A stretch of DNA of 64,000 nucleotides from Candidatus Venteria ishoeyi. GTDB lineage: Bacteria > Pseudomonadota > Gammaproteobacteria > Beggiatoales > Beggiatoaceae. The position numbers and the translations under genes were made by a program. Within the stretch, counting starts at the first letter, position 1; every line of letters starts with the position of its first letter. This document shows positions 20,761 to 48,496 of this stretch, one piece after another. Under the pieces are notes generated by a model. It was not told the origin of the DNA. It did not search any database and saw only the letters and a program-made list of their open reading frames with translations. The stretch is from positions 1 through 64,000 of the forward strand of contig NZ_JAUCGJ010000010.1 of assembly GCF_030378065.1 (NCBI RefSeq), read 5' to 3'.

Positions 20761-21097
20761 GGGTATCCTCCACACCTTTAATTTCTATAGCTGTTACTTG
20801 AGACCAATCTAATCCACCTTCTGCTCTCATGGGTATAGGATCATTTATAGGTTTGAAAAGCAGCCTATAAGGATGATCTAAATCTACCGATAATTGCCCT
20901 TTTTTATTACCCTTCAGTTCGTGACAACGATTTGGAAGACTGTAAGGTGGGGCGAAAATACCGAGGTTTGGAGCGGCTCTTAACTGAGTCATGATAACTT
21001 TTAAAATATCAGCTCGCCTAGAGCCGTGAGCTTTAACCAAAGATTTAAATTCACTTAATTGTTTTTGGAGCTTTTTACTGGAGAAAACTATTTCCAT
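20753..21097 (-). CDS. higB: HigB/RelE-family toxin
   Basis: A 114-residue protein of the RelE/HigB fold, with a basic N terminus (FSSKKLQKQLSEFKSLVKAHG) and the C-terminal segment DLDHPYRLLFKPIND. That segment matches the plasmid maintenance killer-protein family, whose members cleave ribosome-bound mRNA. It is the first gene of a two-gene operon with the HigA-ImmA fusion, overlapping it by 8 bases. The toxin-before-antitoxin order is the HigBA arrangement. It lies in accessory DNA downstream of the attC-like site. Confidence 0.75.
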   Translation of the reverse strand: MEIVFSSKKLQKQLSEFKSLVKAHGSRRADILKVIMTQLRAAPNLGIFAPPYSLPNRCHELKGNKKGQLSVDLDHPYRLLFKPINDPIPMRAEGGLDWSQVTAIEIKGVEDTHG

Positions 21098-28685: not shown

Positions 28686-28700
28686 CAAGAGAATTTATTA

Positions 28701-31790: not shown

Positions 31791-32367
31791 ATACTAAGTT
31801 GTGCCAAAGATGCCCTCTACCCTGTTCTCTATCCTGACTTTGATATAATAGTAATGCATCCTGTTTTAAAAATAAATTTATAATTTGCTCCTGCGTTATT
31901 GGTGCGTAAAGTTTTCCATCTTCACGATAATTAATCGCAGAAGTACCTCGAAATGACAGTAGAATTACACCATTATTATGGGTAATTCGTAGTAAATTTT
32001 TTATTGCTATGGACAGATTTTCTGGGTTTAGATGCATAACCACTGCTGAACAAAGTACATTAACGTATTCAACATCTCTTAACTTAATTAAATTGGGTAG
32101 TGTATCGTGAATAAAATTAATCGTCGGATAACGTTGATGTGCTTGCTGTAGCATTCCCTGTGAAGCATCAATACCAGTAACCACAAAGCCTTGTTGTTGA
32201 AGCCAATAACAATCTCGACCAATACCACAACCAATATCAATTACGCTTTCATGGGGGCTAAAAAAATACCTGATTAGTTGATATAGTTTAACCGGAGTTA
32301 AATTGCAGTGTAGTTTGGCAATCTGCTTTGCATTTTTATCATAATTTGCAATAGTCAATTTATCCAT
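31780..32367 (-). CDS. SAM-dependent methyltransferase (class I)
   Basis: 195 residues of the Methyltransf_11/25 type. The SAM motif I is VIDIGCGIGRDCYWL near residue 40, followed by VVTGIDAS, and a motif IV-like region reads VLCSAVVMHL near residue 110. No DNA-recognition domain or N-P-P-Y catalytic motif is seen, so a DNA substrate is unlikely and a small-molecule or RNA target is possible. It lies on the strand opposite to all other island genes, between the HNH gene and the truncated BrxC-like gene. Confidence 0.75.
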   Translation of the reverse strand: MDKLTIANYDKNAKQIAKLHCNLTPVKLYQLIRYFFSPHESVIDIGCGIGRDCYWLQQQGFVVTGIDASQGMLQQAHQRYPTINFIHDTLPNLIKLRDVEYVNVLCSAVVMHLNPENLSIAIKNLLRITHNNGVILLSFRGTSAINYREDGKLYAPITQEQIINLFLKQDALLLYQSQDREQGRGHLWHNLVFRK

Positions 32368-32407: not shown

Positions 32408-35236
32408 AGCGAAAATATTGAATACCAAGCCAGCCACGCCCAGGTCAATGATATTCACCTGCTTCAACTCATTGCTGAACATGGCAAAAAAAGCAAACCC
32501 ATTCCGATTTATTTAGTTGTTTTTTTGCATCAAGCATTTGAACAATATGCGCGTGGTCTGGGTAAAAAACTCCAAGATGAATGGCTCAAAATTCAAGGAC
32601 GTTTTGAAAGCATTGCTTTTCTTGAAGCTGCGGAACAAACGTTGCATGTACTCAAGGCAACCTTTCGTCATCGCTTTAACACTAGCGAATACCCAAAACT
32701 CCAAATATTAGCACAACAAATTGCTGAGCCATTATATCAAGTAGGCGCACTGCCCGGTTCTCTTGACATTGAACAGGCCGCAGAACTATTTTACAAATGT
32801 TACCCCTTACATCCCATTGCACTCCTGCTATTACCCCAACTCTGCCAAAAAGTTGCACAAAATGAGCGCACCCTCTTTAGCTACATCGGCAGCCGTGAAG
32901 CTTATAGTTTTCAAGAACGCCTTGCACACTTAAACATTGGGGATTGGATTCAGGCAGCAGATATTTATGATTATTTTTTACTCAATCAACCTACTGCGCT
33001 AACTGATAGCTTTACCTATCATCACTGGGTGGAAGTTATTACTGCCTTAGAGCGCCTCGGCAGTGATGCACCACCTGAACAAATCAAACTACTCAAAACC
33101 ATTGGTCTGCTCAATATCGTTGGAGGGCAGGGAGGATTTAAAGCTTCTCAAGCCATACTCGCACTGAGTCATCCAGAACAAGACGCCAGCCAGCAAGAAC
33201 AGAACCTAAAAGCACTGCAAGCAGCATCCTGTATACACTTTCGCAGCTTTAGCCAAGAATACCGCGTATGGCAAGGCAGTGATTTTGATCTCAGCGGTAT
33301 CTTGGTTGAAGAGACCAATGCACTTAGAGGACTCAATCTTGCGGAAACACTGAATCAGCGTCAAGTATTAGCCCCCCTGGTTGCCCGCCGCCACACCATA
33401 GAAAGCGGTTCTCTACGCTACTTTATCCCTAGTTTTATTGATAGTGAATCAGTTCATAAATTTCAACCTGATACACAGCAGCTACAAATTTACTTTTATC
33501 TGGCAGCAGATACAGAAGAGCAAAAGATATTTGAACAGCTCCTGGAACAAGTTGGCGACCTCGTGGTGATGGTTTTTTGCCCAAACTTAGCGCGTTTGCA
33601 TGATAGCGTTATTCAGGTTATGGGGCTTGTGAATATGGCGCAACATCATACGGTATTGCAAACCGACCCTGTAGCGGAACGTGAACATAAGGCCTGGCTC
33701 AGCAATGCTCACGCCAATGAACAAAAGCTACTTAATAATTTTCTCGAAACACCTTGTTATTATTCTTGGTATTGGCGTGGTAAAGCTTGTGAAATTCCTA
33801 CTAAGCGCCGCCTACAAATTACACTTTCAGAAATTTGCGACACAATTTACTACGATACGCCAATTATTCGTAATGAACTTATTAACCGCACCCAAATTTC
33901 AGGCAGTGCCAGTACCGGGCGTAATAAGCTGTTTAACGCCATGCTTGAACATGCTGCTGAAACTAACTTGGGTATCACCAAGTTTCCGGCTGAAAAAAGC
34001 ATGTACCTGGCACTATTAAAAGAGCCTGGTCTACATCGACAAGCAGCGGATGGTCGCTGGCTATTTTCTTCTCCTGATGCAGATAACCCGTTTAAGTTTC
34101 ACAAACTCTGGCAAGCTATTGACCGCTTTCTGGACACTCATGAAACCCAAGCACAGGCTTTGACAGCACTTTATGCCATATTACAAAAACCACCTTATGG
34201 ACTTAAAAATGGTATTTTACCCGTCTTATTTGCGGCTTATTATTTAAGCCGCCAGCGTGAGATTGCACTCTATGAAGAGAATATCTTTTGCCCTTTATTC
34301 ACTTATGAACACCTTGAGCTACTGAGCAAACGACCAGAGCGTTTCAGTATTGAGCGTTTTCGCCTTCAGGGTATGCGGCTTGAAGTATTTCGCCACTATT
34401 TACAAAATATTCTTGGACATATTCCAGAACAAGCCACCCTGCTTGATATTATCCGCCCATTGGCAAAATTCATGCGTGGTTTACCTGTTTATACCCAAAA
34501 GACCAACAACCTCAGCCCTGAAACCCTGGCTGTACGTAATAGTTTCAACAAGGCCCAAAGTCCCGCTAAGTTATTATTTCAGGCACTACCCCAAGCCTGT
34601 GGTTTTACTCCTTTTGAAATCAATTCGGTAGATGAAACCTTAGCAAAAAATTATATGGAAGCACTGCTTAATAGCCTGCGTGAGCTTAAAGGTGCTTACC
34701 AGGTGCGGCTTGATGAGTTGCGCGATCAACTGGCCTATGCCCTGAAGCTACCAGAACCTTTTAACCTGCCTGCTATGCGTCAAACGATACAAGAACGTTT
34801 TACCGGCTTAGAGCAGTATACAGGGGGGGAAGGTCAAGATTTATTTGCGTTTATTCGCCGTCTCACCAGCCTTCAAAATAAAGATCAAGCCTGGCTAGAA
34901 TCTGTTGGCACCTTATTAGGCCGCATACCACCTAATAAATGGCAAGAATCTCACAGCCAACAAGCGGAACTGAAATTGAAAGAATTCAGGGAACGCTTAC
35001 ATGATGTCGCCGCACTAGATGAAGCCATTAAAAATCGTCCCAATAATCAAACCCGTACTGTTCTGATCCGGGCAGTGAGTCAAGATAAAGGTGAACAAGC
35101 AAGCAAAATTGCCTACATCAATGAAGCACAGGAACAGCAGGTAAAACAACAGGTCAGAGCAGTACAAAAAACACTAAAGGGAATAGATAAATCAATGGGG
35201 CTGGCAGTTATTGCAGAGCTATTGGAAGGGTTGTAA
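32408..35236 (+). pseudogene. BrxC-like ATPase lacking its N-terminal P-loop portion
   Basis: The frame is open from 32408, after a TAA at 32405, although the first ATG is at 32525. The residues before that ATG (IYQASHAQVNDIHLLQLIA) continue the protein homology, so the gene has lost its true 5' end. What remains aligns with the second part of the BrxC-family ATPase at 38367: QGRFESIAF with EGRFGNFHI, CYPLHPIALLLL with CYPLHPVTAAAL, and KPPYGLKNGILPVLFAAY with NPPYGIPSAAMPLFAAV. The Walker A region, about 300 residues in the intact paralog, is absent. The rest has no internal stops over 900 codons, so the loss is recent or a shortened product is still made. Confidence 0.7.
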
Positions 35237-35356: not shown

Positions 35357-36241
35357 ATGACAAAAAATGAATTAAAAAAACTATTTAGCCAATTAACTAT
35401 TTGGAAAACTGGAGATAAGCGAGCACCACATAAGCCATTACTTGTTTTATTGGCAATTTCCCATTGTTTAAATAAAAAAATACGTTTACTACCATATAAG
35501 GAAATAGAAAAAGATTTTGCTGACTTGGTACAAGGGTTTACTCCTCAGCGTCGAGCAGCTAATCTTCATTATCCTTTTTGGCGATTAAAATCAGATAAAA
35601 TATGGGTTTTAGAAAATACTGAACATGTTAGATCATCCAGTAGTGGTGATGCATATGTTACAGATTTACGAAAATTTGATGTAAAAGGTGGATTTACTAC
35701 TGAAATTTATGATTTGATAGCCAATGATCAATCTCTTGTTAAAGAGATTGTAGAAAGCTTATTGAAAGATACATTTCCTGAATCAATACATGAGGATATA
35801 TTGCAAGCAATAGGTATTGATTTAGAGTTGAAAACTCATAAACGTGATCCAAAATTTAGAGAACTTATTCTTAAAGCATATGAGTATCGCTGTGCTATTT
35901 GTGGTTTTGATGTAAAAATGGGGCATACACCTATTGCATTGGAAGCTGCTCATATTAAATGGCATATGCATAAAGGGCCAGATATAGAGTCAAATGGATT
36001 GGCCTTGTGTTCTTTGCATCATAAGTTATTTGATCGGGGAGCTTTTACGCTAGATGATAATCAAAGAATACAAGTATCTGATTTGGCAAATGGTACAGCA
36101 GGTTTTCAAGAATGGCTTATGGCTTATCATGGAAAAACATTGATTAAGCCTCAGCATCCAGATTATATACCTCACAAAGAATTTGTAGCTTGGCATGTTA
36201 AAGAAGTATTTTTAGGTTCATCACGTTATTTACCGGAGTAG
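35357..36241 (+). CDS. HNH endonuclease with phosphorothioate-binding (SBD) domain
   Basis: 294 residues. The N-terminal domain has the hallmarks of sulfur-binding domains of ScoMcrA-type enzymes: GDKRAPHKPLLVLLAI near residues 17-32 and ANLHYPFWRLKSD near residues 70-83. The C-terminal HNH domain has YRCAICG, LEAAHIKWH, NGLALCSLHHKLFD, i.e. the Cys pair and the H-N-H residues. Members of this family bind phosphorothioated DNA and cut nearby. It is first in a string of same-strand genes whose next member is a PAPS-reductase-like protein, 6 bases on. The gene is strongly AT-rich. The specificity cannot be read from sequence. Confidence 0.82.
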   Translation: MTKNELKKLFSQLTIWKTGDKRAPHKPLLVLLAISHCLNKKIRLLPYKEIEKDFADLVQGFTPQRRAANLHYPFWRLKSDKIWVLENTEHVRSSSSGDAYVTDLRKFDVKGGFTTEIYDLIANDQSLVKEIVESLLKDTFPESIHEDILQAIGIDLELKTHKRDPKFRELILKAYEYRCAICGFDVKMGHTPIALEAAHIKWHMHKGPDIESNGLALCSLHHKLFDRGAFTLDDNQRIQVSDLANGTAGFQEWLMAYHGKTLIKPQHPDYIPHKEFVAWHVKEVFLGSSRYLPE

Positions 36242-36247
36242 TTAAAA

Positions 36248-37042
36248 GTGGAAAAACCTATTAGACATTTACTTGGTTTATCTGGTGGAAAAGATAGTGC
36301 AGCATTAGCAATTTATATGAAAGAAAAAGTGCCTGAAATGGAGTATTTTTTTGCTGATACAGGATCAGAGTTACCAGAAACACTTGAATTTGTAAATATT
36401 ATGCAAGATTATTTAGGAAAAGAAATTACACGTATTAATTCTGGTAGAGATTTTGAACATTTTCTAAAATTAAAAGGTAATTTTTTACCTAATGCTCATT
36501 TTCGTTGGTGTACACAGTATATGAAGTTAGCACCTTTTGAAAAGTTTGTTGGTACTGATAAGGCTATCACTTATGTGGGTATTAGAGCTGATGAACTATA
36601 TCGAGAAGGTTATCTTGTTAGTAATAAGTCAAATATTCAAGCTAAATATCCATTTAAAGAAGATGGACTATTAAAAGAGGATATTCTAAGAATTTTAGAG
36701 GACTCTGGTGTTGGTATACCTAAATATTATAACTGGCGAAGTCGTTCTGGTTGTTATTTTTGTTTTTTTCAAAGGAAGGAAGAATGGGTAGGACTTTATG
36801 AAAACCATCCCGAACTTTTTGAAAAGGCAAGAGTATATGAACAATTTCATCATGAAAGAGGTAGGAATTACACTTGGTCGCCAGGTGAGTCTTTAGATCA
36901 TATCATAGCTAGAGCCGATAAAATAAAAGCAGAAGCTGAGGTTAGATATGATGCTAAACGTGCTAAAAATTTATTTGAGGCTGTTCTTCAAGAAGAAGAT
37001 GATGCACCAGAAGATCAGTCTTGCCCTATTTGCTCTATATAG
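36248..37042 (+). CDS. brxP: BrxP: PAPS-reductase/DndC-like protein of type 4 BREX
   Basis: 264 residues, GTG start. The ATP-pyrophosphatase P-loop SGGKDS is at residues 12-17. Cysteines are placed as in DndC-like sulfur-transfer proteins: RWC (Cys88), SGCYFC (Cys169 and Cys172), and a C-terminal CPIC pair (259, 262) that could hold an iron-sulfur cluster. DndC activates the DNA backbone for sulfur insertion. BrxP is the PF01507-type protein that defines type 4 BREX. It is shorter than DndC (about 500). No cysteine desulfurase gene lies nearby, so a housekeeping IscS would have to supply sulfur. The gene is AT-rich and packed between its neighbours. Confidence 0.85.
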   Translation: MEKPIRHLLGLSGGKDSAALAIYMKEKVPEMEYFFADTGSELPETLEFVNIMQDYLGKEITRINSGRDFEHFLKLKGNFLPNAHFRWCTQYMKLAPFEKFVGTDKAITYVGIRADELYREGYLVSNKSNIQAKYPFKEDGLLKEDILRILEDSGVGIPKYYNWRSRSGCYFCFFQRKEEWVGLYENHPELFEKARVYEQFHHERGRNYTWSPGESLDHIIARADKIKAEAEVRYDAKRAKNLFEAVLQEEDDAPEDQSCPICSI

Positions 37043-37054
37043 AGGTTAATTCTA

Positions 37055-37894
37055 GTGTCTTTAATCAGAACTCAAACAGCCCCTATATCAAAATGGTGGA
37101 TTACAGAAGGGCTAAAATTGATAGAAGCCCATCCTGATCTTTTCTCAAAAGATAAAATGCGGCAAATGCGTACCATGCTGATTGTTGGTTCAAATCGCTT
37201 AGATACTATAAAAGGGTGGTTACTGGCAAGTCAGATAATACAAAATGATAAACGACGGTATTATTTATCTGATTTTGGGTATGAATTAAAAAATAATGAC
37301 TCTAACTTTGAAAAGTCATCAACTTGGTGGGCATTTCATTTATCACTTTGTTTTTCTTCTCGTGGTGAACCGTATTCAACACTTTTTAAAATCTTAAATC
37401 CTAGCAATGAATGGTATGCCTCAAAAAAAATACTTAAACGTATGCAAGAAAGAATTGAGCAGTCTGATAACTATATTGAGGATGATTTTCAAGGTGTTAA
37501 AAGTATGTTTCAGGATAATAAACCTTTAGCTGATTTGGAATTAATTGAGTTTAGACCTAAAGATTTAGAAATATATATCCGCCTCGGCTCCCCCACCATA
37601 TCCGATGAAATTCTCCTTTACGCCTTAACATTAGCTCGCTTCCATGTCGCTAAAAATCGCACCAGTATCACTTTTACAGAATTATTGACCTGTGGTTTAA
37701 ATCATTTTATTTGTCTTTCCCCCGATGAGCTGCGTAAACGTTTGCGTAACTTGCATCGTTCGGCGCGTTGGCAGTCTCAATTACGTTTTGATGAGGTGAA
37801 GGGTTTGGACACGGTAGAGTTTCTCAGTGAAGACTTAAATTCACATAAGATGTTATTGAATTTGTTACAAAATCATAAGGATAGCTGGCTATGA
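37055..37894 (+). CDS. DUF4007 family protein (phosphorothioation-associated)
   Basis: 279 residues from a GTG with agaggt upstream. The beginning, WWITEGLKLIEAHPDLFSKD followed by a V-G-S-N-R-L-x-T-I-x-x-W-L segment, matches DUF4007, a family found beside dnd and related sulfur-modification genes. The helical N-terminal part looks like a winged-helix DNA-binding module, which is inference. Base composition changes near 37570: the first two thirds are AT-rich like brxP, the last third is like the following genes. Its TGA overlaps the next ATG (ATGA), so translation is coupled. Confidence 0.75.
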   Translation: MSLIRTQTAPISKWWITEGLKLIEAHPDLFSKDKMRQMRTMLIVGSNRLDTIKGWLLASQIIQNDKRRYYLSDFGYELKNNDSNFEKSSTWWAFHLSLCFSSRGEPYSTLFKILNPSNEWYASKKILKRMQERIEQSDNYIEDDFQGVKSMFQDNKPLADLELIEFRPKDLEIYIRLGSPTISDEILLYALTLARFHVAKNRTSITFTELLTCGLNHFICLSPDELRKRLRNLHRSARWQSQLRFDEVKGLDTVEFLSEDLNSHKMLLNLLQNHKDSWL

Positions 37895-38361
37895 TAGACA
37901 GGAATCTATTAGCCGAAAATTTACAAATATTTCTGAATACTTATCACCATGCACGTTATCGTGGTATTGCTTTATCCGTTAAAGAAGTATTGGATGGTCA
38001 GGTTGTTTTTGAAGTATTGCAAACGCTTTTGCCTACTTGGCGAATTTGGCAAATGGGTCAGGGAAATGATGTGCCTGATTTGTCTTGTCATCGCTTGGAT
38101 TTTATTCAGCAAAGTATTGAACAAGGGCAGCGGGAAAATTTACTTGTTTTATACCCGGAAGAGTGGATGCAAAGCTGGAATTTAGTCGATAAAGAGAGCT
38201 TTTGGACGAGTTTGGCAGAGAGTTTTGGGCGACATACGGTGATTACGATATCTTTTGAAACCCATGAGACCTTACGTTTATTAAGTGCCAGTTTTAAGGC
38301 ATGGGATATGGAAGCGAGTCCTGTACAGCTATGGCTGTCTAAACACCAACCTTGGGATTGA
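37891..38361 (+). CDS. Unrecognised 156-aa protein within the BREX gene string
   Basis: 156 residues, overlapping the DUF4007 gene by 4 bases and ending 5 bases before the ATG of brxC, so it is surely part of the operon. It has a Q-rich middle and a segment with alternating hydrophobics (ENLLVLYPEEWM, then HTVITISFETHETLRL) that resembles an alpha/beta core. In size and position next to BrxC it recalls BrxF of type 3 BREX, but no Walker A motif (GxxGxGK[ST]) is present, so either it is a degenerate relative or unrelated. The segment FGRHTVITISF might be a Walker B-like strand. Function is not known. Confidence 0.6.
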   Translation: MIDRNLLAENLQIFLNTYHHARYRGIALSVKEVLDGQVVFEVLQTLLPTWRIWQMGQGNDVPDLSCHRLDFIQQSIEQGQRENLLVLYPEEWMQSWNLVDKESFWTSLAESFGRHTVITISFETHETLRLLSASFKAWDMEASPVQLWLSKHQPWD

Positions 38362-38366
38362 AGTCA

Positions 38367-41300
38367 ATGGATTTGCAATTAAAAGATATAGTCAGTACAG
38401 AACAAACCATACAAACACAAAAGCGAGGGAAGGCTATTCGTTTGGATGATGGGCTGGCAGGGCAATCTGAAGCACTGGTATCCTATTTTACGCCTACCCA
38501 GTCAGCACTGAAAGTATTAAAAAATATTCAAAAGTCGGTATTGCCTAATGCTTCACCACAGCAGCGAGCAATGATTTGGCATGGTATTTATGGCGCAGGA
38601 AAAAGTCATTTGGGCGTACTGGTAGGCCACTTGCTACGACATGGTACAGACACAAATGCCTTTAAAGGTTTGTTAAAAAAATTAGAAAATTTAGATCAGC
38701 CTACATTGGCACGGGAACTGGCAAATACCTTCCCGGCTTTGGAAGACTCAGGAGCGCGGCCTTATTTGGTGGTGCCTTTGTATGGTTCGCAGAATGCGCC
38801 AAGTTTGCAATTAGCCTTGCTGGAAGCTTTGTATGATAGCGTTTCTCGCGCCTCTGGTTTGGATGAGAAGCTGATTATTCCAAAAACAGAATATGATGCA
38901 GCGGTTACACGGTTTGAGGATATTCTAGATCATAAGCCTGAGCTACAAGATGCCAGCTTGGATAAGTGGGGGCTGATGCAGGAGTTTTTAACGGCTGATA
39001 ATTTATTGACAGGGCTAAAAAAACGTACACCAGAAGCCTTGGAAACATTTAAAGCTTGGCATGTTAAGGTTTCAGCAGGAGCGGCGTTTCGTTCCGCAGA
39101 TGCCGGGGGGAAAAATGTTACAGAAGCCTACTTTGAAGCCTGTCAGAATTTAGCGAAGCAGCATGGTTATGCAGGTATCGCTATACTTTGGGATGAATTA
39201 GGTTATGCGCTGGAAAACCTGCTCACCAAGCGCCCATATAATGCTGTCAATGAAGTATTTGCTTTGCAGAATTTTATTGAGACTTTATGCGGCAAAAAAG
39301 ATAACGGTCATTTATTATTTATGGGGCTGACGCACAGGGATTTAGGTAATTATGGCGTAGATTCCGGAGCAGAACAGACAGTTATACAACGTCTGCGTAC
39401 TATTGAAGGCCGTTTTGGAAATTTTCATATTGAGCTAAAAGCTACTGAGCAAGAAGGCTATCACTTGTTGGGGGGATTACGGGAATTTACCTCAAGAGGA
39501 GAGGCATACCTGAATGCAGCAGATGAGAATTTGGAGGCTTTAACGGGGATATGCAGCAAGCTGGCTATATTTAATAATTTTGAGCCACAGGAATTGATGC
39601 ATGTGGCACGCTTGTGTTATCCACTACATCCAGTCACAGCCGCTGCTTTGTTTGGGATAGCTTCTCGTGGTAGTTATTCAGAAGCCAGTCGTACAATATT
39701 TACTTTTTATACTGAACTAGATAAAGAAACACAGGGCAAAGTGTTTAATCAGCAGGTGGATATACAGCGTTTGTATGGTGCTGAGTTAATTCGCTTGCCT
39801 GCATTATTGATGGTCTATGAGCAATCTATCGCCCAGGAATTGCCTGCACTAGTCGATATGTATCATAACGCAGTGGCAAAGATTAAGGCGCAAGCGGATG
39901 CTGTAGAGCGCCGGGTGGCGGTGTTGACAGTAATGTTATTGGCGCGGGTGCTGGGGGATAATTTTCAGCCGACTGAAAAATTTCTGGCAATCACTTTGTA
40001 CGATGCAACAGTAGACAGCGTGGAAGCCGCATATTTACAGGAAGACTTGGATTGGTTGAAGCAGGCACAGTTTATTTATAAGAATGATCGTACCGGCGTG
40101 TGGGAGCTGGAAAGCGGTGGCAACGTTGAAGTCGGTGGATTGATTGAAGAACAGGCGCAGCAGGTTGATGCGGGTATGGGCACGCATACCTTGTTAAATA
40201 ATCATGTGGATATGTGCGCTGATCTATTTCCCCATTTAGGTATTCATGATTTGGATCCTTCCCCTGCGGGAATTGTGCGTGCATATGCGGTGCATTTGTT
40301 AGATACACCTTTTGAATCACAATTACTGAAGTTAGACAATGAATGCCTATCGGCGCAGGTATTTCTGGTTTTACCCAAAGATGAGCGCGCCGCAGAAAAA
40401 GCGCGTATTTCATGCCGTCAGGCTATAGTAAAAAATGATCGCTTATTATATTTTTGGATTCCCCGCCAGGGTACGCGAAATCTTGATGCTCATTTACGGC
40501 GTTATGTCGCCATTGAGAGGCTATTACAGCAGGCTGGCACCGGGGACAGTATGCGTCGGCGTTTATTAATGGAGTGGGAAAATAACCGCTATGCTTTGAT
40601 TAAGTTGCTGCGCGAATATTTTGGTGGTAAAGGTCTGGAGGATGGTCAGGCACAGATTTTTGCCGCTGGAGATATAGATAATCCTTTATCTTGCCGCAGT
40701 TGGCATGAATTCCGTGATCTAGTGGGAACCCAGGTCAATCTGTTGTATCCCAAGGAAGTACCGGTGCGGGCAATGAATGTGAATCATCTCTATGTGGAGA
40801 AAGCACGAAAAATTCCCAAGCTTGAGCATTTGCTGCATCATATTTTGCATTTTGATGAGGATGTCGCGGAAAAAGATCGCAATGACTTACTCGGAGAGAA
40901 AGAGACCAGTGAGCGTGCCGCAACCATTGACGGTACTTTGGGGAAATTTGCCAATGATTTATTTATTCAAGGTGCCGATGTTTGGGATATTAAAACATTA
41001 GAACAGGTAGATGAGCCAATTAAGTCGGTATTACAATTGATGCGCGATGAGTTGGTGCGTAAACGAGAAAAAGCTTATCCCGTGTCAGAACTGCGTAAAA
41101 CCTTATTAAATCCACCGTATGGGATTCCATCTGCGGCAATGCCATTGTTTGCTGCCGTTGCCTTGCGGGCGGATTACAAACGCTTAAAGTGGGTGAATGG
41201 CAAAGGAGCATTTCATCAAAATTTAGCCTCAGCATTTAATGAGGGTACTAAGGCGCAGATTCGGCACGAGGATTTTAACCGGAAGCAGTTAAATTTATTA

Positions 41301-42092
41301 CGGGCTTTGGCTAAAGCTTTGGAATGTGAGTGGGTTATCCAAGACGAGCATCAAGCAGCGCGGGAGACATTACAGGCGTTACGCAAACATATTGAAGCAT
41401 TACCGGATGCCGTAAAATATACAGCAAAATTATCCAGGCAGGCACAGGATTTTGTTAGAGAAATCACGCAACCAGGCCGCTCATCGCATGAACTGGTAGA
41501 TTTTTTATTGTTGCTCGATGGCGTTAATGAGGCTTTACGGGATGGCTTAGAGATTGATGGCTATTCCGAGGTTACTCGTCTGTTACGAAATTTATTAGGA
41601 GAGTTTGATGAGATTGCGAATGCTCGCCAGAAAGAAATTCAGAATGTGTTATATGCTTTCCTTGATAATAAAGAAAAATTAATCGCAGGCTTGCAGGCAG
41701 GTAATCAAAACTGCATCGCTAATGCATTAAGTGCAGAAAAGGCATCGCAGATGGTTGCGCCTTTGGTTCAATGTCTGGCAAATAAGTCATTGGCAGAATG
41801 CTCTGATATGGAGACAGGGCGGCTTAGTGCAAAACTGGAAAATGTGCTGAATACCGCTTTAACACCTTTGCCACCGGTATCTTCACCGCTGACTGTGACG
41901 GGGACAACGAATAAGCCAGTAAATACATTGCCACTAGGAACAGTGAAACCAACAGAGAATACACCGGCTCGTGTCGTGATGGTGGATGATATTTTAGTGA
42001 GGTTTCGACAAGTGATCGATCACTATAAAAATAAAGCGGATAAGCAAACACTGTTGCAGGCGGTGGATGCTTTACGGACAGAGTTACAATAA
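38367..42092 (+). CDS. brxC: BrxC-family ATPase of type 4 BREX
   Basis: 1,241 residues from the ATG at 38367; a TTG 15 bases upstream, inside the preceding gene, is less likely. Walker A is GIYGAGKSH near residues 73-81 and a Walker B-like strand is AGIAILWDELGYAL near residue 272. The long C-terminal part is mainly helical. Families BrxC/PglY are large P-loop ATPases needed for BREX defence and host DNA modification, and form complexes with PglZ and the modification enzyme. A paralog without the P-loop lies at 32408. Length is normal for the family (about 1,200). Confidence 0.85.
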   Translation: MDLQLKDIVSTEQTIQTQKRGKAIRLDDGLAGQSEALVSYFTPTQSALKVLKNIQKSVLPNASPQQRAMIWHGIYGAGKSHLGVLVGHLLRHGTDTNAFKGLLKKLENLDQPTLARELANTFPALEDSGARPYLVVPLYGSQNAPSLQLALLEALYDSVSRASGLDEKLIIPKTEYDAAVTRFEDILDHKPELQDASLDKWGLMQEFLTADNLLTGLKKRTPEALETFKAWHVKVSAGAAFRSADAGGKNVTEAYFEACQNLAKQHGYAGIAILWDELGYALENLLTKRPYNAVNEVFALQNFIETLCGKKDNGHLLFMGLTHRDLGNYGVDSGAEQTVIQRLRTIEGRFGNFHIELKATEQEGYHLLGGLREFTSRGEAYLNAADENLEALTGICSKLAIFNNFEPQELMHVARLCYPLHPVTAAALFGIASRGSYSEASRTIFTFYTELDKETQGKVFNQQVDIQRLYGAELIRLPALLMVYEQSIAQELPALVDMYHNAVAKIKAQADAVERRVAVLTVMLLARVLGDNFQPTEKFLAITLYDATVDSVEAAYLQEDLDWLKQAQFIYKNDRTGVWELESGGNVEVGGLIEEQAQQVDAGMGTHTLLNNHVDMCADLFPHLGIHDLDPSPAGIVRAYAVHLLDTPFESQLLKLDNECLSAQVFLVLPKDERAAEKARISCRQAIVKNDRLLYFWIPRQGTRNLDAHLRRYVAIERLLQQAGTGDSMRRRLLMEWENNRYALIKLLREYFGGKGLEDGQAQIFAAGDIDNPLSCRSWHEFRDLVGTQVNLLYPKEVPVRAMNVNHLYVEKARKIPKLEHLLHHILHFDEDVAEKDRNDLLGEKETSERAATIDGTLGKFANDLFIQGADVWDIKTLEQVDEPIKSVLQLMRDELVRKREKAYPVSELRKTLLNPPYGIPSAAMPLFAAVALRADYKRLKWVNGKGAFHQNLASAFNEGTKAQIRHEDFNRKQLNLLRALAKALECEWVIQDEHQAARETLQALRKHIEALPDAVKYTAKLSRQAQDFVREITQPGRSSHELVDFLLLLDGVNEALRDGLEIDGYSEVTRLLRNLLGEFDEIANARQKEIQNVLYAFLDNKEKLIAGLQAGNQNCIANALSAEKASQMVAPLVQCLANKSLAECSDMETGRLSAKLENVLNTALTPLPPVSSPLTVTGTTNKPVNTLPLGTVKPTENTPARVVMVDDILVRFRQVIDHYKNKADKQTLLQAVDALRTELQ

Positions 42093-42118
42093 TCATTTAA
42101 AAGGAATACTTAATTACA

Positions 42119-44425
42119 ATGCATCCGTGTATCCAGTTGCTTGTGGATGATTTTGATTTAGAAGATGGGGAGGATATTCATCTTGTTAATCCTGATGATA
42201 TTCCCCATATTCGCCAAAAAATTTATGCTCACCTGGCATATGGACAGGGCGCTTTATCCATTCGTATGTCTTCCGTTTTTTTTCAGCGTTTTAAGAGTTT
42301 TGAGGGCGGTCAAGGTATTACAGTTAAACGTATTTCCCCCTTTTTACAGTTGTCTCATCAACTGGGTGAAGCGCCACCTTTATGGCTGACTGATGCCTTA
42401 GCCGAGAAGCTAGGCTTATATCAGCGGGGTGTATTATCTGATGAATTAAAGCGGTTAAATAACAGTACGGTGAAGGTTTTAGCTTTGCTGCACTCTGATT
42501 TATTGGCACAGGATAGTTGGCAGGCGTTTTGTGTAGCATTGCAGCAACAAACATCAGATTTTATTAATATTCTAAAAATTGATGTCGTGACTGCCTATTT
42601 ACATACGCAGTTATCCACTTTTATGCCGATTGAAATTGTTGCCGGTTTTTTAAAAAACTTGCAAGGTTGTAATGATATCGCTGAGTTTTTACGAGCACTG
42701 GCTTTGGAACAATACTGGGAAAAGCTACGGAAAGTGCTTGAACAGCATTGCTGGGTTGCTGATATTGCCTTACCTGCCCGCCAATTTTCCCCAGATTTGA
42801 TTGCGCAGTTACCAGAGCTACCTTTGCAGGAACATCAAGCGCATGATTTAGTCGTCTGTTTATGTGATTTGCTAGATACAGTCGAGCGCCGTATTCGTAT
42901 GGATGAACAGAAAGCTGGCGTATTGGCTGATTTTGTTTTTGTGGCTTGGCCACAAGTATTGGCGCATTTAGCACAGTTATTTCAGGATAACTCAGACATT
43001 GGCACTACTGCGCTACGTGATGTTTTGCAGACTATGGGAGGCGATGAGGCGCGCAAGTTAGCCGTGCGTGTCAATGAACATTTGCAATATGCACCTTGTG
43101 AAGTATTACCGGAAAATGCGCCGGTAGAGCAGGTTTTAGACTGGAGTGAGCGTTATTTTTCCTATACTTTGCGTGAGTTTTTGCATGGACGCGAACCCCA
43201 AAATAGTATTTGCCAAAGTTTCAGTCGCTGGGTATATGCGCAGCAACCTCGTATTATGCGCTCTAATGCGGATTGGCGCAGTATCGCACCAACAATTGAG
43301 CAGTATTTAAGTGAAGATTATCTGGTATTGGTGTTTATGGTTGATGCCTTAGGTGCTATTCATGCAGACATGCTGGAGAGAATTTTACGTGAGCGGGTTA
43401 ATGATTTGCATATTGATTCACGCACCGTGTTTGCACCACTACCAACTTTGACTGAAGTGGGTAAGGCTGCGGTGCTTACGGGGCAGGCTGCAAGTGAAGT
43501 TTCAAGTGATTATGAAAAGGCATTGCGACAACGTTATGCGACTTGGTTGGAACAGCCTGAATCCTTGAAAATTGTAAAAAGTTTTCGTGAATCAAGTGAA
43601 CATTTAGATGCCAATACACGTTTGTTGGTCTATTTTGAAAATCGTTTGGATGAACGTTTACATGGTTGTTTGAGCTTTGCAAAACATCGTGAGGAAGTTG
43701 AGCCAATATTAAAGCAGTTGACACGCAGTTTGGCTGACTGGGTTAAAGATGCGGTACATTTGGGTAAAAAACCTATCATTTTGATTACGGCTGATCATGG
43801 TGCAACGACAATTGCCCAAAAGGAAGCTTGTCATTTAACTGAAACGATAATCAAAGATCGGGTACTGCAAACTAATGAGGAACAAGCACATAATTTGCCA
43901 GATGATTTTGTTTTTATCCCTGGCAGGAAGCCAAAGGGTTATGCTGTACCTTTAAAGCGTATACATTTTGGTGATACGCCCTTAACTCATGGGGGGCTAA
44001 CCCCTGAAGAAGTGTTTATTCCTTTGTTTACCTTGAGCAGGGAGGCTTTGCAGGCAGATGAAAAAATACCTATTAAAGTGAATGTGCTCAAACCGCGCTG
44101 CCCAACTCTGGAAAAGGGTTGGCATTTAGAGCTATCCATATTACCCCGCATACGCCTGAATAAATTGCAGTTGCAGTTTAATGAGCCATTTGATGCCAAT
44201 ACGCCAAATTATAGTGATTTACAGGCACACAGTGAAACCAAAATTCCTTTGCAGTTGGTTTCAGAACAGGCACAGTCAGGATTAACTCAAGTGGATTTAA
44301 CATTGCGCTACCTACCAGATAAGCAGACTACATGGACATCTTTGACGGTCAATTTATCTTTAGATCTGGTTGCACCTCTCATGCAACAGACGCAGGAAGC
44401 AGATAATTTTAATAAAATGTTTTAA
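42119..44425 (+). CDS. pglZ: PglZ alkaline-phosphatase-fold protein
   Basis: 768 residues with aaggaat as ribosome-binding site. The phosphatase-superfamily metal ligands are visible: FMVDALGA (Asp409), ITADHGAT (Asp559, His560) and THGG (His624). PglZ is the one protein shared by all BREX types. Its biochemical role is still unclear, but loss abolishes defence. The N-terminal 400 residues are helical and the last 130 form a beta-rich end. It lies 26 bases after brxC and 14 before brxL. Confidence 0.9.
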   Translation: MHPCIQLLVDDFDLEDGEDIHLVNPDDIPHIRQKIYAHLAYGQGALSIRMSSVFFQRFKSFEGGQGITVKRISPFLQLSHQLGEAPPLWLTDALAEKLGLYQRGVLSDELKRLNNSTVKVLALLHSDLLAQDSWQAFCVALQQQTSDFINILKIDVVTAYLHTQLSTFMPIEIVAGFLKNLQGCNDIAEFLRALALEQYWEKLRKVLEQHCWVADIALPARQFSPDLIAQLPELPLQEHQAHDLVVCLCDLLDTVERRIRMDEQKAGVLADFVFVAWPQVLAHLAQLFQDNSDIGTTALRDVLQTMGGDEARKLAVRVNEHLQYAPCEVLPENAPVEQVLDWSERYFSYTLREFLHGREPQNSICQSFSRWVYAQQPRIMRSNADWRSIAPTIEQYLSEDYLVLVFMVDALGAIHADMLERILRERVNDLHIDSRTVFAPLPTLTEVGKAAVLTGQAASEVSSDYEKALRQRYATWLEQPESLKIVKSFRESSEHLDANTRLLVYFENRLDERLHGCLSFAKHREEVEPILKQLTRSLADWVKDAVHLGKKPIILITADHGATTIAQKEACHLTETIIKDRVLQTNEEQAHNLPDDFVFIPGRKPKGYAVPLKRIHFGDTPLTHGGLTPEEVFIPLFTLSREALQADEKIPIKVNVLKPRCPTLEKGWHLELSILPRIRLNKLQLQFNEPFDANTPNYSDLQAHSETKIPLQLVSEQAQSGLTQVDLTLRYLPDKQTTWTSLTVNLSLDLVAPLMQQTQEADNFNKMF

Positions 44426-44439
44426 GTAGGCGCATTACA

Positions 44440-45843
44440 ATGGCAATTAATTCAGATTTTGATCATAAACTCATTAGTATTTTTGGTGATATTAGTATTG
44501 ATAAAGCAGCGGTGCGAGACTTAAAAATTCGTGATGCACGCACTATTACCAGTTTTGTAGAGGAATGGCTGGTTTCACGTTATCAGCAACCGGGTAAAAG
44601 TAATGCGCAAGTGTATGCAGATATTACCGATTTCATGAGTAAGCACTTGCCGACAAAAAATGAAAAACAAACAATTAAACATCGCCTGAATCAAGGGGAG
44701 TCAATTGTATTACTTGATCGCTTTACGGTTAGTGTGGATATTAAAAAGAAGCAAAGTTTTATCAAGATACCATGTCTGGATGAGAATAATGCTGTTGTAG
44801 ATAATGGCGTTCTGGATGCAAATCCTGGTTTGCTCAGTGGTGGTCAATGGGGCGCGGGACGCTTATATGTCAGGCCGGAAGGGAATGCTCATATTATTGA
44901 ATTAGTGGAGTTTAAGCCAATGCAGTCAGGCCAGGTGCGGCTGGACAATATTATTGAAGCGCGTCAGCAATTTAGCACACAGGAATGGATACATGTACTG
45001 TTGCGTACTATGGGTTATGAGCCCAGCGCCTACTCTGAAGCCGAGCAATGCCGAATAATTTTGCGTCTATTGCCTTTGGTGCAGAAAAATTTGAATATGA
45101 TGGAGCTGGCACCCAAAGGCACGGGGAAGTCGTTTATTTATGACAATCTCAGTCGTCATGTATGGCTAACGACTGGCAAACTAAGTCGTGCTCAATTATT
45201 TAAAAATTTGAATACTAAAGAAGAAGGTTTGTTGGCACGCTTTGATGTACTTGTTTTGGATGAGGGACAGTCGCTTGAATTTACTGGTAGTGGGGATATT
45301 CATGCTAACTTCAAAAATTATCTGGAATCTGGACACTATTCTATAGGTCAGGATAAAGTTACCAGTGAATGTGGCTTGATGTTATTAGCAAATATTGATT
45401 TATCTTCAAATAAGCAACCTCGCCGCCCAGATTACATTCGCCACCTGCCGGAAATGTTTCATGATGATGCGCTGATGGATAGGTTTCATGGCATTATCCC
45501 TGGTTGGGAAATTCCTCGTTTTAGGACTGAACATGCTGCGCAAGGGCCAGGCATCAAAGCCGATGTATTTGGTGAATATGCAAACCAAATCCGAATTGCT
45601 GGGCATTATGAGCTTCCCTATGGGGAAGTGCCTATACTAAAAGGGGATACCCGTGACAAAAATGCAGTGGAGCGTTTAGCTAAGGCCTTATCAAAGTTAC
45701 TGATGTTGAATCCTGACGATGCAGAGTATGAAAATTATGTGCTGCACCCAGCAATGGACTTGCGAAAACGGGTACGAACCCAGTTAGCGGAATTGAACCC
45801 ACATGAGTTTTCAGCGGCTTTGGATGTGAGTATAAGTGCTTAA
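44440..45843 (+). CDS. brxL: BrxL, short form (AAA+ without visible Lon protease domain)
   Basis: 467 residues. The start FDHKLISIFGDISIDKAAVR is typical for BrxL. Walker A is APKGTGKS near residues 224-231 and Walker B is VLVLDEGQ near residues 270-277. Many BrxL proteins are about 680 residues and end in a Lon-like domain with a Ser-Lys dyad. Here the protein ends soon after the AAA+ part, so it corresponds to a shorter subfamily of about 450 residues. BrxL proteins assemble on DNA as a ring. The next gene starts 36 bases later. Confidence 0.85.
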   Translation: MAINSDFDHKLISIFGDISIDKAAVRDLKIRDARTITSFVEEWLVSRYQQPGKSNAQVYADITDFMSKHLPTKNEKQTIKHRLNQGESIVLLDRFTVSVDIKKKQSFIKIPCLDENNAVVDNGVLDANPGLLSGGQWGAGRLYVRPEGNAHIIELVEFKPMQSGQVRLDNIIEARQQFSTQEWIHVLLRTMGYEPSAYSEAEQCRIILRLLPLVQKNLNMMELAPKGTGKSFIYDNLSRHVWLTTGKLSRAQLFKNLNTKEEGLLARFDVLVLDEGQSLEFTGSGDIHANFKNYLESGHYSIGQDKVTSECGLMLLANIDLSSNKQPRRPDYIRHLPEMFHDDALMDRFHGIIPGWEIPRFRTEHAAQGPGIKADVFGEYANQIRIAGHYELPYGEVPILKGDTRDKNAVERLAKALSKLLMLNPDDAEYENYVLHPAMDLRKRVRTQLAELNPHEFSAALDVSISA

Positions 45844-45879
45844 ATTTCTTTTTGATGGGAAATTTATATCAACAAAAAT

Positions 45880-47919
45880 ATGAACTATACCATTTATAAA
45901 AAACTCATCCAGCAAGTGACTTCTGCAAAATATCCGGGTAAACATTTGCCTGATGCAGTTTATGTGCATAGTTCTGCGCTCACGGCTTTGCCTGTTGAAC
46001 TGCAAAGTTTGTTAAGTGATACCATCCAAAATTTAGCTTTACAGTCTTTTGAATATCAGTTGGTTAAATTCTCCAAACGCGATTTCAAGCTTTCCCTGCT
46101 GGCCTACCCAGATTTTTTCACGGAAGCCTTTCCGGTGCTGCACAGCAGTTGCACCATTGATTTAATGAAAGGCCGCTATCGCCTGACTTCTTATCTGGAA
46201 TCCAAAAATCCGCCGATTCTGCACCGCAAGGAAACCATGCTGTTAGCGGAACATCCCGATATTCCACGTTTTCAGGCTTTAACCCAGGCTTGTGAACAGG
46301 CGGGTTTATTTGAGAACCCGCGCAGCATCGGTTTTAAGCAGAACTGGTTGCGTTTGATTCGGCGTAAGGGTTATCAGTTAGTTGATGGGCAGTTGCAACA
46401 ACTGGCGCAGCTTGTTGAAGCGGCGGAACCGATAGCGCAAGATACGGCAATTCACCGCCACAAGACGGCAATTCGCCGTTATGCCTTGTCCAAACCCATG
46501 CAAACACTGATGCAGCATGATTATTTGAATGGTCATTACAGCCTGTTTGATTATGGCTGTGGGCAGGGTGATGATATACGCGAGCTGGCGGCGCATGACT
46601 TGCAGGTATCCGGTTTTGACCCGGTGCATCAGCCGGATATATCCAAACAAGCAGCAGATATTGTTAATCTGGGTTTTGTGCTTAATGTTATCGAAGACCC
46701 ACAGGAGCGCCTTGCTTGTTTGCGTGAGGCATTTAAGCTGGCGCAGCGGGTGCTGGTGGTGTCGGTGATGCTGGGCAATGCAAAGCTGCTGGCGAAGTTT
46801 CAGCGTTTTGGCGATGGCGTGTTGACGCAGCGTAATACGTTTCAGAAATATTACAGTCAGGGTGAGTTAAAAGCTTATATCGAAAGCAGCTTAGGGCTTA
46901 ATGCCATTGCGGTAGCGCCCGGTATTTTTTATGTGTTTCGTGATGCTCTGGATGAGCAGGTATTTTTAAATAAGCGTTTTCAGGTGCGGCGGGAATGGCG
47001 GCAGTTGACGCAACCGACAAAACCAATCCAGCTTAAGCAGCAACAAAACCTGTTTGATAAGCATCGGCAGTTATATGAATATCTGTGGGAGGTTGCGCTG
47101 GATTTGGGGCGTTGCCCGGTCAGCAGTGAGCTGGAGCAGACGGAGCTGATACGCCAGGCATTTGGTTCCTTGCGCAAGGCATTTGACCGCGTGGTCAACT
47201 TTTACGGGGTGGATGTATTTGAGCAGGCGCAGCAGGCGCGAGCGGAGGATTTGCGGGTGTATCTGGCGCTGGAGAAATTCAGTGGGCGCAAGCCTTATAC
47301 GCATTTACCGGAAAGCCTTAAGCGTGATGTTAAAGCCTGGTTTGGTGATTATAAAAATGCCCAGGCCAAGGCAACCCAGCTTTTGTTTGCGGTGGGCAAT
47401 GTAGAACAGATTCAAGCCGCGTGTGAGCAGGCGCAGGAGTTAGGCTATTTACAGGCGCATAAGGCACTGACCCTGCACCGTTCGCAAGTCGGTCAATTAC
47501 CGGCGATATTGCGGGTGTATATCGGCTGTGCCACGCAGTTATACGGGGATGTGGACAGCGCGGATTTAATCAAAATTCATATCTATTCCGGCAAGGTCAG
47601 TTTGATGGTGTATGATGATTTTGCCAATAAACCCCTGCCGGAATTACAGGAACGTATCAAAATCAAACTGCGTGAGCAGGCGATAGATTTTTTTGATTAT
47701 GTGGGGGAGTATCAGCCGCAGCCTTTATATCTTAAGTCTTTGTATATTCCGCCGGATTTTCCTAATTATGAGAAACAACATAAGTTTGATGAAAAACTGC
47801 TAAAAACCGGCTTGTTTGATTTATCGGCTTATGGGCCGAGACGTGATGCGTTTTATGCGGCGCTGGCGCTAAATAAATATCAGGTACGGGGTTTTCAATT
47901 GGTGAAACGGCGAAAATAA
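45880..47919 (+). CDS. DNA phosphorothioation-associated putative methyltransferase
   Basis: 679 residues matching the family named for its association with dnd loci. The N-terminal region (residues 1-200) contains CTIDLMKGRYRLTSYLESK. A SAM-binding domain follows: LFDYGCGQGDDIREL near residue 221 and IVNLGFVLNVIEDPQERL near residue 260, with VLTQRNTFQKYYSQGEL after it. The C terminus (YGPRRDAFYAALALNKYQVR) is also conserved. The substrate is unproven. Its GC content rises along the gene compared with brxP. It is the last gene of the string, followed by a hairpin at 47933. Confidence 0.82.
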   Translation: MNYTIYKKLIQQVTSAKYPGKHLPDAVYVHSSALTALPVELQSLLSDTIQNLALQSFEYQLVKFSKRDFKLSLLAYPDFFTEAFPVLHSSCTIDLMKGRYRLTSYLESKNPPILHRKETMLLAEHPDIPRFQALTQACEQAGLFENPRSIGFKQNWLRLIRRKGYQLVDGQLQQLAQLVEAAEPIAQDTAIHRHKTAIRRYALSKPMQTLMQHDYLNGHYSLFDYGCGQGDDIRELAAHDLQVSGFDPVHQPDISKQAADIVNLGFVLNVIEDPQERLACLREAFKLAQRVLVVSVMLGNAKLLAKFQRFGDGVLTQRNTFQKYYSQGELKAYIESSLGLNAIAVAPGIFYVFRDALDEQVFLNKRFQVRREWRQLTQPTKPIQLKQQQNLFDKHRQLYEYLWEVALDLGRCPVSSELEQTELIRQAFGSLRKAFDRVVNFYGVDVFEQAQQARAEDLRVYLALEKFSGRKPYTHLPESLKRDVKAWFGDYKNAQAKATQLLFAVGNVEQIQAACEQAQELGYLQAHKALTLHRSQVGQLPAILRVYIGCATQLYGDVDSADLIKIHIYSGKVSLMVYDDFANKPLPELQERIKIKLREQAIDFFDYVGEYQPQPLYLKSLYIPPDFPNYEKQHKFDEKLLKTGLFDLSAYGPRRDAFYAALALNKYQVRGFQLVKRRK

Positions 47920-47950: not shown

Positions 47951-48049
47951 ACTTGTATTAAACTTATGCCATATTATTCGCTTTTTCAAGCATTAAGCGT
48001 TATAAAATATATAGATTTAAGTACATTGACTATTTTTAAGAGAACAATC

Positions 48050-48496
48050 ATGAAAAAATTCAGAATTTCCCGCATGAAAAAACAGGCTGGTTTTACGCTG
48101 CTGGAAATGTTAGTGGTGTTGGTTATTATCGGTCTGTTGGCAGGATTGGTGGGGCCGCAGTTATTTGGTCAGGTGGATGAGGCGAAAGTCAAAACCACCA
48201 GAACCCAGATTAAAATGCTCAAAGGCGCGCTGGAAACCATGCGCCTGGATATTGGGCGCTTTCCCACTGCGGAAGAAGGCTTGGGGTTGTTGAGCGCGCC
48301 ACCGGCAGAAGAGCGGATTAAGGCCATGTGGAAAGGCCCGTATATGGATGAGACAGTGCCTAATGATCCCTGGAATGTACCTTATCAATATGCAGTGCCG
48401 GGGGGGAATGGTCGCCCGTTTGCGCTGTATTCCATGGGCGCAGATGCTAAGCGTGGTGGCGAGGCTTATGATGCGGATTTGGGGTATTTACCCTGA
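48050..48496 (+). CDS. gspG: Type II secretion major pseudopilin GspG
   Basis: 148 residues from the ATG at 48050; a longer frame upstream adds 28 unlikely residues before the leader. The prepilin leader MKKFRISRMKKQAG is cut before FTLLEMLVVLVIIGLLAGLV, the inner-membrane helix. GspG forms the pseudopilus that pushes folded proteins through the outer-membrane secretin. The body shows the family pattern QIKMLKGALETMRLDIGRFP and the late NDPWNVPYQY with a calcium-site-like end (GGEAYDADLG). It heads gspG-H-I; the rest of the system is not in the window. Confidence 0.93.
   Translation: MKKFRISRMKKQAGFTLLEMLVVLVIIGLLAGLVGPQLFGQVDEAKVKTTRTQIKMLKGALETMRLDIGRFPTAEEGLGLLSAPPAEERIKAMWKGPYMDETVPNDPWNVPYQYAVPGGNGRPFALYSMGADAKRGGEAYDADLGYLP

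Follow-up and report, generated by a model that had tools for sequence, protein, structure and literature searches.

Type 4 bacteriophage exclusion (BREX), built from BrxP, BrxC, PglZ and BrxL, has been described as a phosphorothioate (PT) system, and its BrxP is frequently, though not universally, a fusion of a 3'-phosphoadenosine 5'-phosphosulfate (PAPS) reductase domain with DUF4007 (PMC12839542). Also known already are the SspFGH effector of SspABCD loci and the HNH endonucleases that carry a sulfur-binding domain (SBD). Without the PT writer the effectors SspE (PMC8092258) and PbeABCD (PMC6459918) are harmless, whereas SspFGH harms PT-free cells (PMC8092258). Here we analyse a locus of Candidatus Venteria ishoeyi, eight open reading frames (ORFs) on the plus strand at 35357-47919 of the window, i.e. 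the whole stretch of 64,000 nucleotides taken from the start of contig NZ_JAUCGJ010000010.1. A preliminary description of this DNA had tied PT modification to a BREX-type machine, a link that is supported here and that was already known for type 4 BREX (PMC12839542). In the reading to which we give slightly better than even confidence, this is one copy of a modular PT defence, damaged in its writer, in which an SspB1-SspC1-SspD writer and an SBD reader are combined with a BREX-like effector in the slot that SspFGH takes elsewhere.

The eight genes are as closely packed as had been proposed: coordinates and strand agree, and the gaps from gene to gene are 6, 12, -4, -10, 26, 14 and 36 bp (Table 1). 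Profiles also bear out the families named for the SBD-HNH, DUF4007, BrxL and methyltransferase genes and, weakly, for PglZ, but the gene named BrxP is a stand-alone SspD. PADLOC model PDLC02782 matches it with 351.8 bits over residues 6-263 of 264, against 42.1 bits for the BrxP model; DndC was likewise rejected (TIGR03183, 19.9 bits, cut-off 290.4). The suggestion that this protein needs partners other than Dnd proteins was sound in so far as the partner set is of SspB/SspC type, for which reason the Dnd genes absent from the locus (no genome search for DndD and DndE was made) have no bearing on it. The DUF4007 gene, sspB2, exceeds its Pfam cut-off (71.6 against 27 bits), matches PADLOC SspB and stands apart from sspD, not fused to it as in type 4 BrxP. 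Each is a single match in the genome, SspB2 being the sole DUF4007 protein. A mosaic origin of sspD, considered on account of its low GC content at third codon positions, was dropped, as this value is the lowest of the tabulated genes for SspD in 7 of 14 relatives. With such profile scores and a gene order repeated in relatives, chance is ruled out.

That order emerges from 20 regions and from a search of the species-genome collection in which the second ATPase of the locus served as query and which yielded 10 loci from 57 candidate stretches (seven from Methylococcales, two from Parabeggiatoa and one from a further proteobacterium). The consensus is sspB1-sspC1-(variable)-sspD-[SBD]-sspB2-156-brxC-pglZ-brxL, where 156 denotes the gene for a 156-aa protein. 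Among the loci read, the stretch from sspD to brxL recurs, with the SBD-HNH gene confined to the window. Window-type BrxC is present in 25 of 251 sampled Methylococcales genomes (of 54 matches, 29 at no more than 61.3 bits were set aside as SspC cross-matches; the 25 kept, fragments included, reach at least 248 bits). SspC1, counted after dropping the nine of 61 matches below 190 bits, accompanies it in 23 of these genomes, all except G912 and G840, against 29 of the 226 BrxC-negative ones (Fisher p 4e-16, uncorrected for relatedness); SspC1 often occurs without the BREX module, but the module is rare without SspC1. A full sspB1-sspC1 pair lies upstream on the same contig in ten of the 25, and the loci of G813 and G994 are probably continuous, since two contigs end inside the same sspD. 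In G965, G898 and G881 the pair lies on another contig with no adjacent sspD, and SspD is strongly matched at the BREX locus alone; G905 resembles them but also holds another ssp cluster, which has an SspD of its own. Within the window's own taxonomic order, a strong BrxC match was found in 3 of 41 other genomes, all of one genus (g527, Parabeggiatoa; G1020-G1022). In two Parabeggiatoa loci (L016 and L022) the gene before window-type BrxC encodes an HCxxGxSRS phosphatase-like motif, and the stretch read holds neither PglZ nor BrxL.

The two ATPases of these loci belong to distinct lineages. In a tree made by a quick method, with two partial ATPase rows left out, SspC1 groups with SspC from two out of three canonical Ssp loci, and a separate clade holds the second ATPases of Methylococcales, each with support of 100 in the Shimodaira-Hasegawa-like approximate likelihood ratio test (SH-aLRT). 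Distances over 10 loci, a set that includes two loci with partial BrxC and one with partial SspD, are strongly correlated for SspB1 and SspC1 (Mantel r 0.97) and uncorrelated for SspC1 and BrxC (-0.02). BrxC and PglZ distances are correlated as well (0.85, 9 loci), and lower values were obtained for SspB2-PglZ (0.52), SspB2-BrxC (0.38) and SspD-BrxC (0.10).

In the window sspD is preceded by a full-length SBD-HNH gene (NF045808, 357 bits over a cut-off of 180; HNH_2 in Pfam, 46 bits), the SBD of which aligns to that of ScoMcrA (5zmm) and which has both the Y-P-F-W and the H-N-H motifs. Relatives have an SBD without HNH, or no SBD, so that the sulfur-reading nuclease named in the preliminary description does not extend to the other loci read. 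Of 19 Methylococcales intervals between sspD and sspB2, eight, one of them partial, have the SBD fused to SspB2 and two have it as a separate 158-aa gene; this tally counts loci from one genome once and omits L025 and L105, where SBD and SspB2 lie on separate broken frames, and the degraded L104. All five SBDs scanned from relatives match just the SBD half of NF045808 (78-89 bits, where the full-length cut-off is 180). Y78 is among the sulfur-pocket residues of SprMcrA (PMC7470945), and the tyrosine aligned to it is kept in 10 of 11 sequences in a mapping made in this analysis. Ten BREX-negative ssp loci, with no rows dropped, show what else can stand behind sspD: an SspF-type gene directly 3' in five and another gene in two, the contig ending first in three. 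Four of the five SspF-type proteins carry an SBD at the N-terminus, and its identity to the SBDs fused to SspB2 reaches 58%. In a profile check of two such loci SspF and SspG were recognised in both and SspH in just one; in the other, the third gene had no match. That one slot, with a similar reader, can hold different effectors is the strongest reason for regarding the BREX-like module as a putative effector, and the SBD common to both suggests that two PT effectors with little else in common sense the mark on one principle.

The presumed writer pair is damaged in this strain. A canonical sspC1, outside the eight genes originally listed, ends 120 bp before the SBD-HNH gene. Its remnant ORF (32525-35236) scores 1047.8 bits with PADLOC SspC over profile positions 227-1053, and by tblastn with three full-length relatives as queries homology begins at 32417, directly past an in-frame stop, at a point equivalent to residue 196-203 of 1129-1143; about 200 N-terminal residues are missing, Walker A among them. 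As the junction lies inside a contig of 102,618 bp, a contig end is no explanation for the truncation, which looks recent or tolerated because the remnant retains 209 of 239 family-invariant residues (219-225 in the three full-length relatives). There is no second SspC in the genome, which is 98.8% complete, and no sspB1 was found, the only DUF4007 protein being SspB2. Relatives have the intact SspB1 and SspC1 that SspABCD requires; the window does not. No cysteine desulfurase was seen within the locus, and one encoded elsewhere in the genome is 47% identical to an SspA. Judging by these sequences, DNA marking by this strain is uncertain, since its SspB1-SspC1 pair is reduced to a truncated sspC.

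At the broken end of sspC1 sits a convergent pair of genes for a 342-aa HNH protein and a 195-aa methyltransferase. The HNH protein is present in 18 of the 251 Methylococcales genomes and in six of these (G808, G840, G952, G980, G981 and G923) a truncated or fragmentary ssp or brxC gene is no more than about 7 kb away; observations on the pair come from loci L098, L104, L149, L151, L153-L157, L159 and L160. Possibly the pair is a cassette that inserts into such loci or takes the place of parts of them. Damage of other kinds was also seen. In Methylotuvimicrobium buryatense 5G (L020, 5102-7349) sspD is split by an insertion, the product of which resembles an IS66-type transposase, with the two pieces flanking it, and this strain may be a natural PT-negative carrier. 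In UBA6146 (L019, 7817-13507) the N-terminal part of sspC1 joins brxC out of frame and there is no sspD, sspB2 or 156-aa gene, by deletion or assembly error.

Among the putative effector genes, the second ATPase is of SspC/BrxC type: PADLOC scores SspC at 154.6 bits and BrxC at 17.2, which rules out an ordinary BrxC, and neither Pfam nor NCBIfam gave a match, while the motifs GIYGAGKS and WDE are present. BrxL exceeds the TIGR02688 cut-off (381.8 against 329.3 bits), matches BrxL_ATPase (306 bits) and has a GTGKS motif, so the combination of a BrxC/SspC ATPase with BrxL that marks type 4 BREX is found here. PglZ is less typical, lying just below the Pfam cut-off (24.7 against 25 bits) and well below that of the type 4 model NF033445, BREX_PglZ_4 (50.2 against 140), which is still its best match among BREX PglZ models. 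That model gave 15 matches in 398 genomes of the phylum, the window's included, none of them over the cut-off. PglZ residues D409, T443, D559, H560 and H624, which by superfamily we take to be catalytic, are invariant in the window and nine relatives. The structure model (mean predicted local distance difference test score, pLDDT, 78; predicted template modelling score 0.48; best PDB match PorX) supports the assignment for the PglZ domain only. When viral contigs were scanned with the BrxC alignment, 96 pattern matches and no relative came up.

The last gene is a clear TIGR04096 methyltransferase (667.9 bits over a cut-off of 150), but it is found apart from BREX genes as well. In 7 of the 11 distinct loci that hold it, at most 330 bp separate it from sspA, the cysteine desulfurase gene, and in three of those seven (L117, L131 and L154) no BREX gene is found in the stretch read.

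No known family could be assigned to the 156-aa protein, as had been noted; PADLOC, Pfam and NCBIfam profiles gave no match. Its AlphaFold2 model (mean pLDDT 87.6) is an alpha/beta domain with best PDB matches to AAA+ proteins, ORC/Cdc6 and the STAND protein Avs4, at Foldseek E-values no better than 0.026; the highest VIA-align Z was 9.8 (136 residues, 3.1 A), where unrelated models reach 7 to 8. Walker A is lacking in all eight aligned members of the family. BrxB, which binds PglZ in type 1 BREX (PMC12205998), is likewise an AAA+/STAND-type protein without a Walker motif (PMC12839542). On the model, its fold, together with the missing Walker motif and the position beside brxC and pglZ, suggests that the 156-aa protein is likely to fold like BrxB, as a Walker-less AAA+/STAND domain.

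Table 1. Features of the Candidatus Venteria ishoeyi locus, in window coordinates.
Feature	Coordinates	Strand	Basis
SBD-HNH, PT-DNA-binding HNH endonuclease (predicted)	35357..36241	+	NF045808, HNH_2, motifs
sspD, PAPS-reductase-like sulfur transfer protein	36248..37042	+	PADLOC SspD; SGGKDS, RWC and CxxC motifs
sspB2, DUF4007 DNA-recognition protein (predicted)	37055..37894	+	Pfam DUF4007, PADLOC SspB
156-aa BrxB-like protein, inactive AAA+/STAND fold (predicted)	37891..38361	+	AlphaFold2 model, fold comparison
brxC, second SspC/BrxC-type AAA+ ATPase; start codon uncertain	38352..42092	+	PADLOC SspC, motifs
pglZ, alkaline-phosphatase-fold effector (predicted)	42119..44425	+	NF033445, Pfam PglZ, invariant residues
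brxL, short form	44440..45843	+	TIGR02688, BrxL_ATPase, GTGKS motif
TIGR04096 PT-associated methyltransferase	45880..47919	+	Profile
sspC1 remnant, 5'-truncated	32417..35236	+	tblastn; PADLOC SspC
HNH / small methyltransferase pair, convergent (companion, not core)	HNH 30762-31790; methyltransferase 31780-32367	HNH +; methyltransferase -	

In the window the island is flanked by secD-secF (26853-29660) and the type II secretion gene gspG (47966-48496). Elsewhere in the window, one open frame of more than 4500 codons runs off the left edge (3-13646), and a protein with a helix-turn-helix and an IrrE-like peptidase domain (19672-20775) is like PD-Lambda-2 component B. Variable companions in relatives include protein kinases (L017, 17312-19654; L094, 10406-11287), a SIR2 protein with a STAND-like ATPase (L019, 17229-20564), a Fic-like protein (L092, 7684-8433) and VapC (L093, 8875-9273).

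The gene families, their order, the association of the modules, the fusion of the reader and the truncation were all observed by computation, and the scheme that we propose is as follows. In intact relatives a cysteine desulfurase would feed SspB1, SspC1 and SspD, the first SspB-SspC pair being the presumed writer, to place sulfur in one DNA strand. The SBD, where present, would read the mark and gate the effector, in which SspB2, the BrxB-like inactive AAA+ protein, the second SspC/BrxC ring, PglZ and BrxL would together halt phage DNA, with PglZ and BrxL acting on it, from the position that SspFGH has in other Ssp loci. The present strain has lost sspB1 and retains a truncated sspC1, intact frames for sspD and the effector genes, and an SBD that is part of an HNH nuclease; it would make little or no PT by the normal route. 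The BREX module would then be silent until sulfur-marked DNA arrives, and the SBD-HNH protein would cut such DNA. By analogy with SspE and PbeABCD, and in contrast to SspFGH, the effector may be harmless without its writer. We lean modestly towards this PT-less, silent state, and consider marking by SspD, SspB2 and BrxC distinctly less probable.

Such marking belongs to another explanation, by which the locus is a type 4 BREX with a split BrxP that acts alone: SspD, SspB2 and BrxC would write PT, PglZ and BrxL would exclude phage, and the SspB1-SspC1 pair of relatives would be an independent second writer sharing the donor. The PADLOC BrxP model does cover both SspD (positions 137-317) and SspB2 (550-776), just as it spans, end to end, the 785-aa BrxP of the Methanosphaera plasmid pNP174, our canonical type 4 comparator, and type 4 BREX is, as said, described as a PT system. 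SspD distances, moreover, follow those of SspB2 (0.64, p 0.001) more closely than those of SspC1 (0.37, p 0.05), which suits a split BrxP and weighs against our scheme, as does G912, which keeps sspD to brxL without SspC1, although its sspA is split; the window, too, retains the set without a full SspC1. Further points are unfavourable to the scheme: no SBD was seen in 9 of the 19 Methylococcales intervals, and hhalign found no similarity between the 156-aa family and a type 1 BrxB or the proteins in the same slot of Thermomicrobium, Pseudanabaena and Abditibacteriota, the last of which does have a Walker A. We nevertheless hold the split BrxP to be unlikely, since SspC1 goes with the module in nearly all genomes (23 of 25), PglZ is far below the type 4 cut-off and SspD is of the Ssp form.

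Loci from other phyla bear on both explanations. A Thermomicrobium roseum plasmid has the order DUF4007-SspC-SspD-DUF4007-166 aa-1401 aa-PglZ-BrxL-desulfurase, and Pseudanabaena galeata pPg_05 has a TIGR04096 methyltransferase, DUF4007, an SspC-like protein, SspD, DUF4007, 142 aa, 1803 aa, PglZ, BrxL and a desulfurase; neither has an SBD by similarity. The recurrence of the layout on these two plasmids counts in favour of our scheme. Profiles confirm SspC1, SspD, SspB2 and PglZ in the former and SspB2 and PglZ in the latter. The second large proteins, of 1401 and 1803 aa, match no PADLOC or Pfam family, have no Walker A by pattern, resemble window-type BrxC over just 282 and 132 residues (26%) and do not join the Methylococcales second-ATPase clade. 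These features fit a non-writing role, and the lack of Walker A counts against the split BrxP, but they fit a separate origin too, and by sequence the layout may have been assembled separately in these phyla, which would tell against our scheme. Long branches leave their second copies, and canonical type 4, unplaced in the SspB and ATPase trees. PADLOC models PDLC02478 (BrxC) and PDLC02549 (PglZ) match Thermomicrobium SspC1 and PglZ end to end, so this locus is evidently catalogued as BREX already. Separately, Abditibacteriota plasmid pIAD-21 (L047, 1733-14383) has consecutive genes for a DrmMI/type IIG-like methyltransferase, SspB, a small Walker A protein, a BrxC-like ATPase, PglZ and BrxL, possibly a methylation version of the same architecture.

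It is improbable that the locus is simply decaying, with no present role, its writer lost and its other frames not yet hit by stops. The truncated sspC1 and lost sspB1, without second copies, would suit this, and other members are visibly decaying (G952, G820 and the split sspA of G912), but the eight frames are intact, with all motifs checked in place, and a remnant with so many invariant residues speaks for a truncation that is recent or tolerated. We give slightly less credence still to the additive model of the preliminary description, in which DNA receives one mark from BrxP and another from the methyltransferase, BREX keeps out phage and SBD-HNH cleaves DNA that bears sulfur. All the families are present, but an SBD-HNH protein cutting PT DNA near a working writer would endanger the host unless sequence contexts differ, the relatives read have no HNH nuclease, and the methyltransferase is found also next to sspA where no BREX gene is in sight.

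The broader proposal, that one PT writer kit serves exchangeable effectors (SspFGH or a whole BREX machine) sharing a portable sulfur-reading domain, with BREX gated by sulfur and two AAA+ rings sharing one sulfur donor, is put forward tentatively and falls somewhat short of an even chance. Such a system bears on self/non-self discrimination in BREX and on the role of its core ring, as two SspC/BrxC rings with one donor and a detachable reader make marking separable from blocking, so that each step can be tested alone. Current profile models score these loci part Ssp and part BREX, and they are easily split or misnamed. A literature search, to which Yuan et al. 2024 was external, gave no account of a two-ATPase hybrid or of effector exchange behind sspD. 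Yuan et al. 2024 reportedly deals with phosphorothioation in type 4 BREX and may describe such loci. Nor did the search give an account of an SBD fused to SspB2 or SspF, although PMC9239176 mentions both SBD and SspF.

The locus has features in common with several known systems. With type 4 BREX it shares a presumed PT chemistry and, in order, a PAPS-reductase, DUF4007, an SspC/BrxC-type ATPase, PglZ and a short BrxL; it differs in that the PAPS-reductase is SspD-type and separate from DUF4007, an extra small protein of predicted AAA+ fold is present, PglZ is far below the type 4 model, a second SspB-SspC pair is normal in relatives and about half of these have an SBD reader. The order of a small DNA-binding protein, a candidate BrxB, BrxC, PglZ and BrxL recalls type 1 BREX (Methylomonas koyamae pLM6), but there is no PglX methyltransferase here, and PT genes are present instead. 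The first gene of the locus is a full-length member of the family of ScoMcrA and SprMcrA (PMC6224610, PMC7470945), unlike these in one apparent operon with SspD, and the SBD of relatives comes without the nuclease. The SspABCD-SspFGH system (PMC8092258) resembles the relatives in its SspB1-SspC1-SspD writer and in the effector genes directly behind sspD, while the putative effector here consists of SspB2, the 156-aa protein, BrxC, PglZ and BrxL, with the SBD on SspB2 or in a separate gene and not on SspF.

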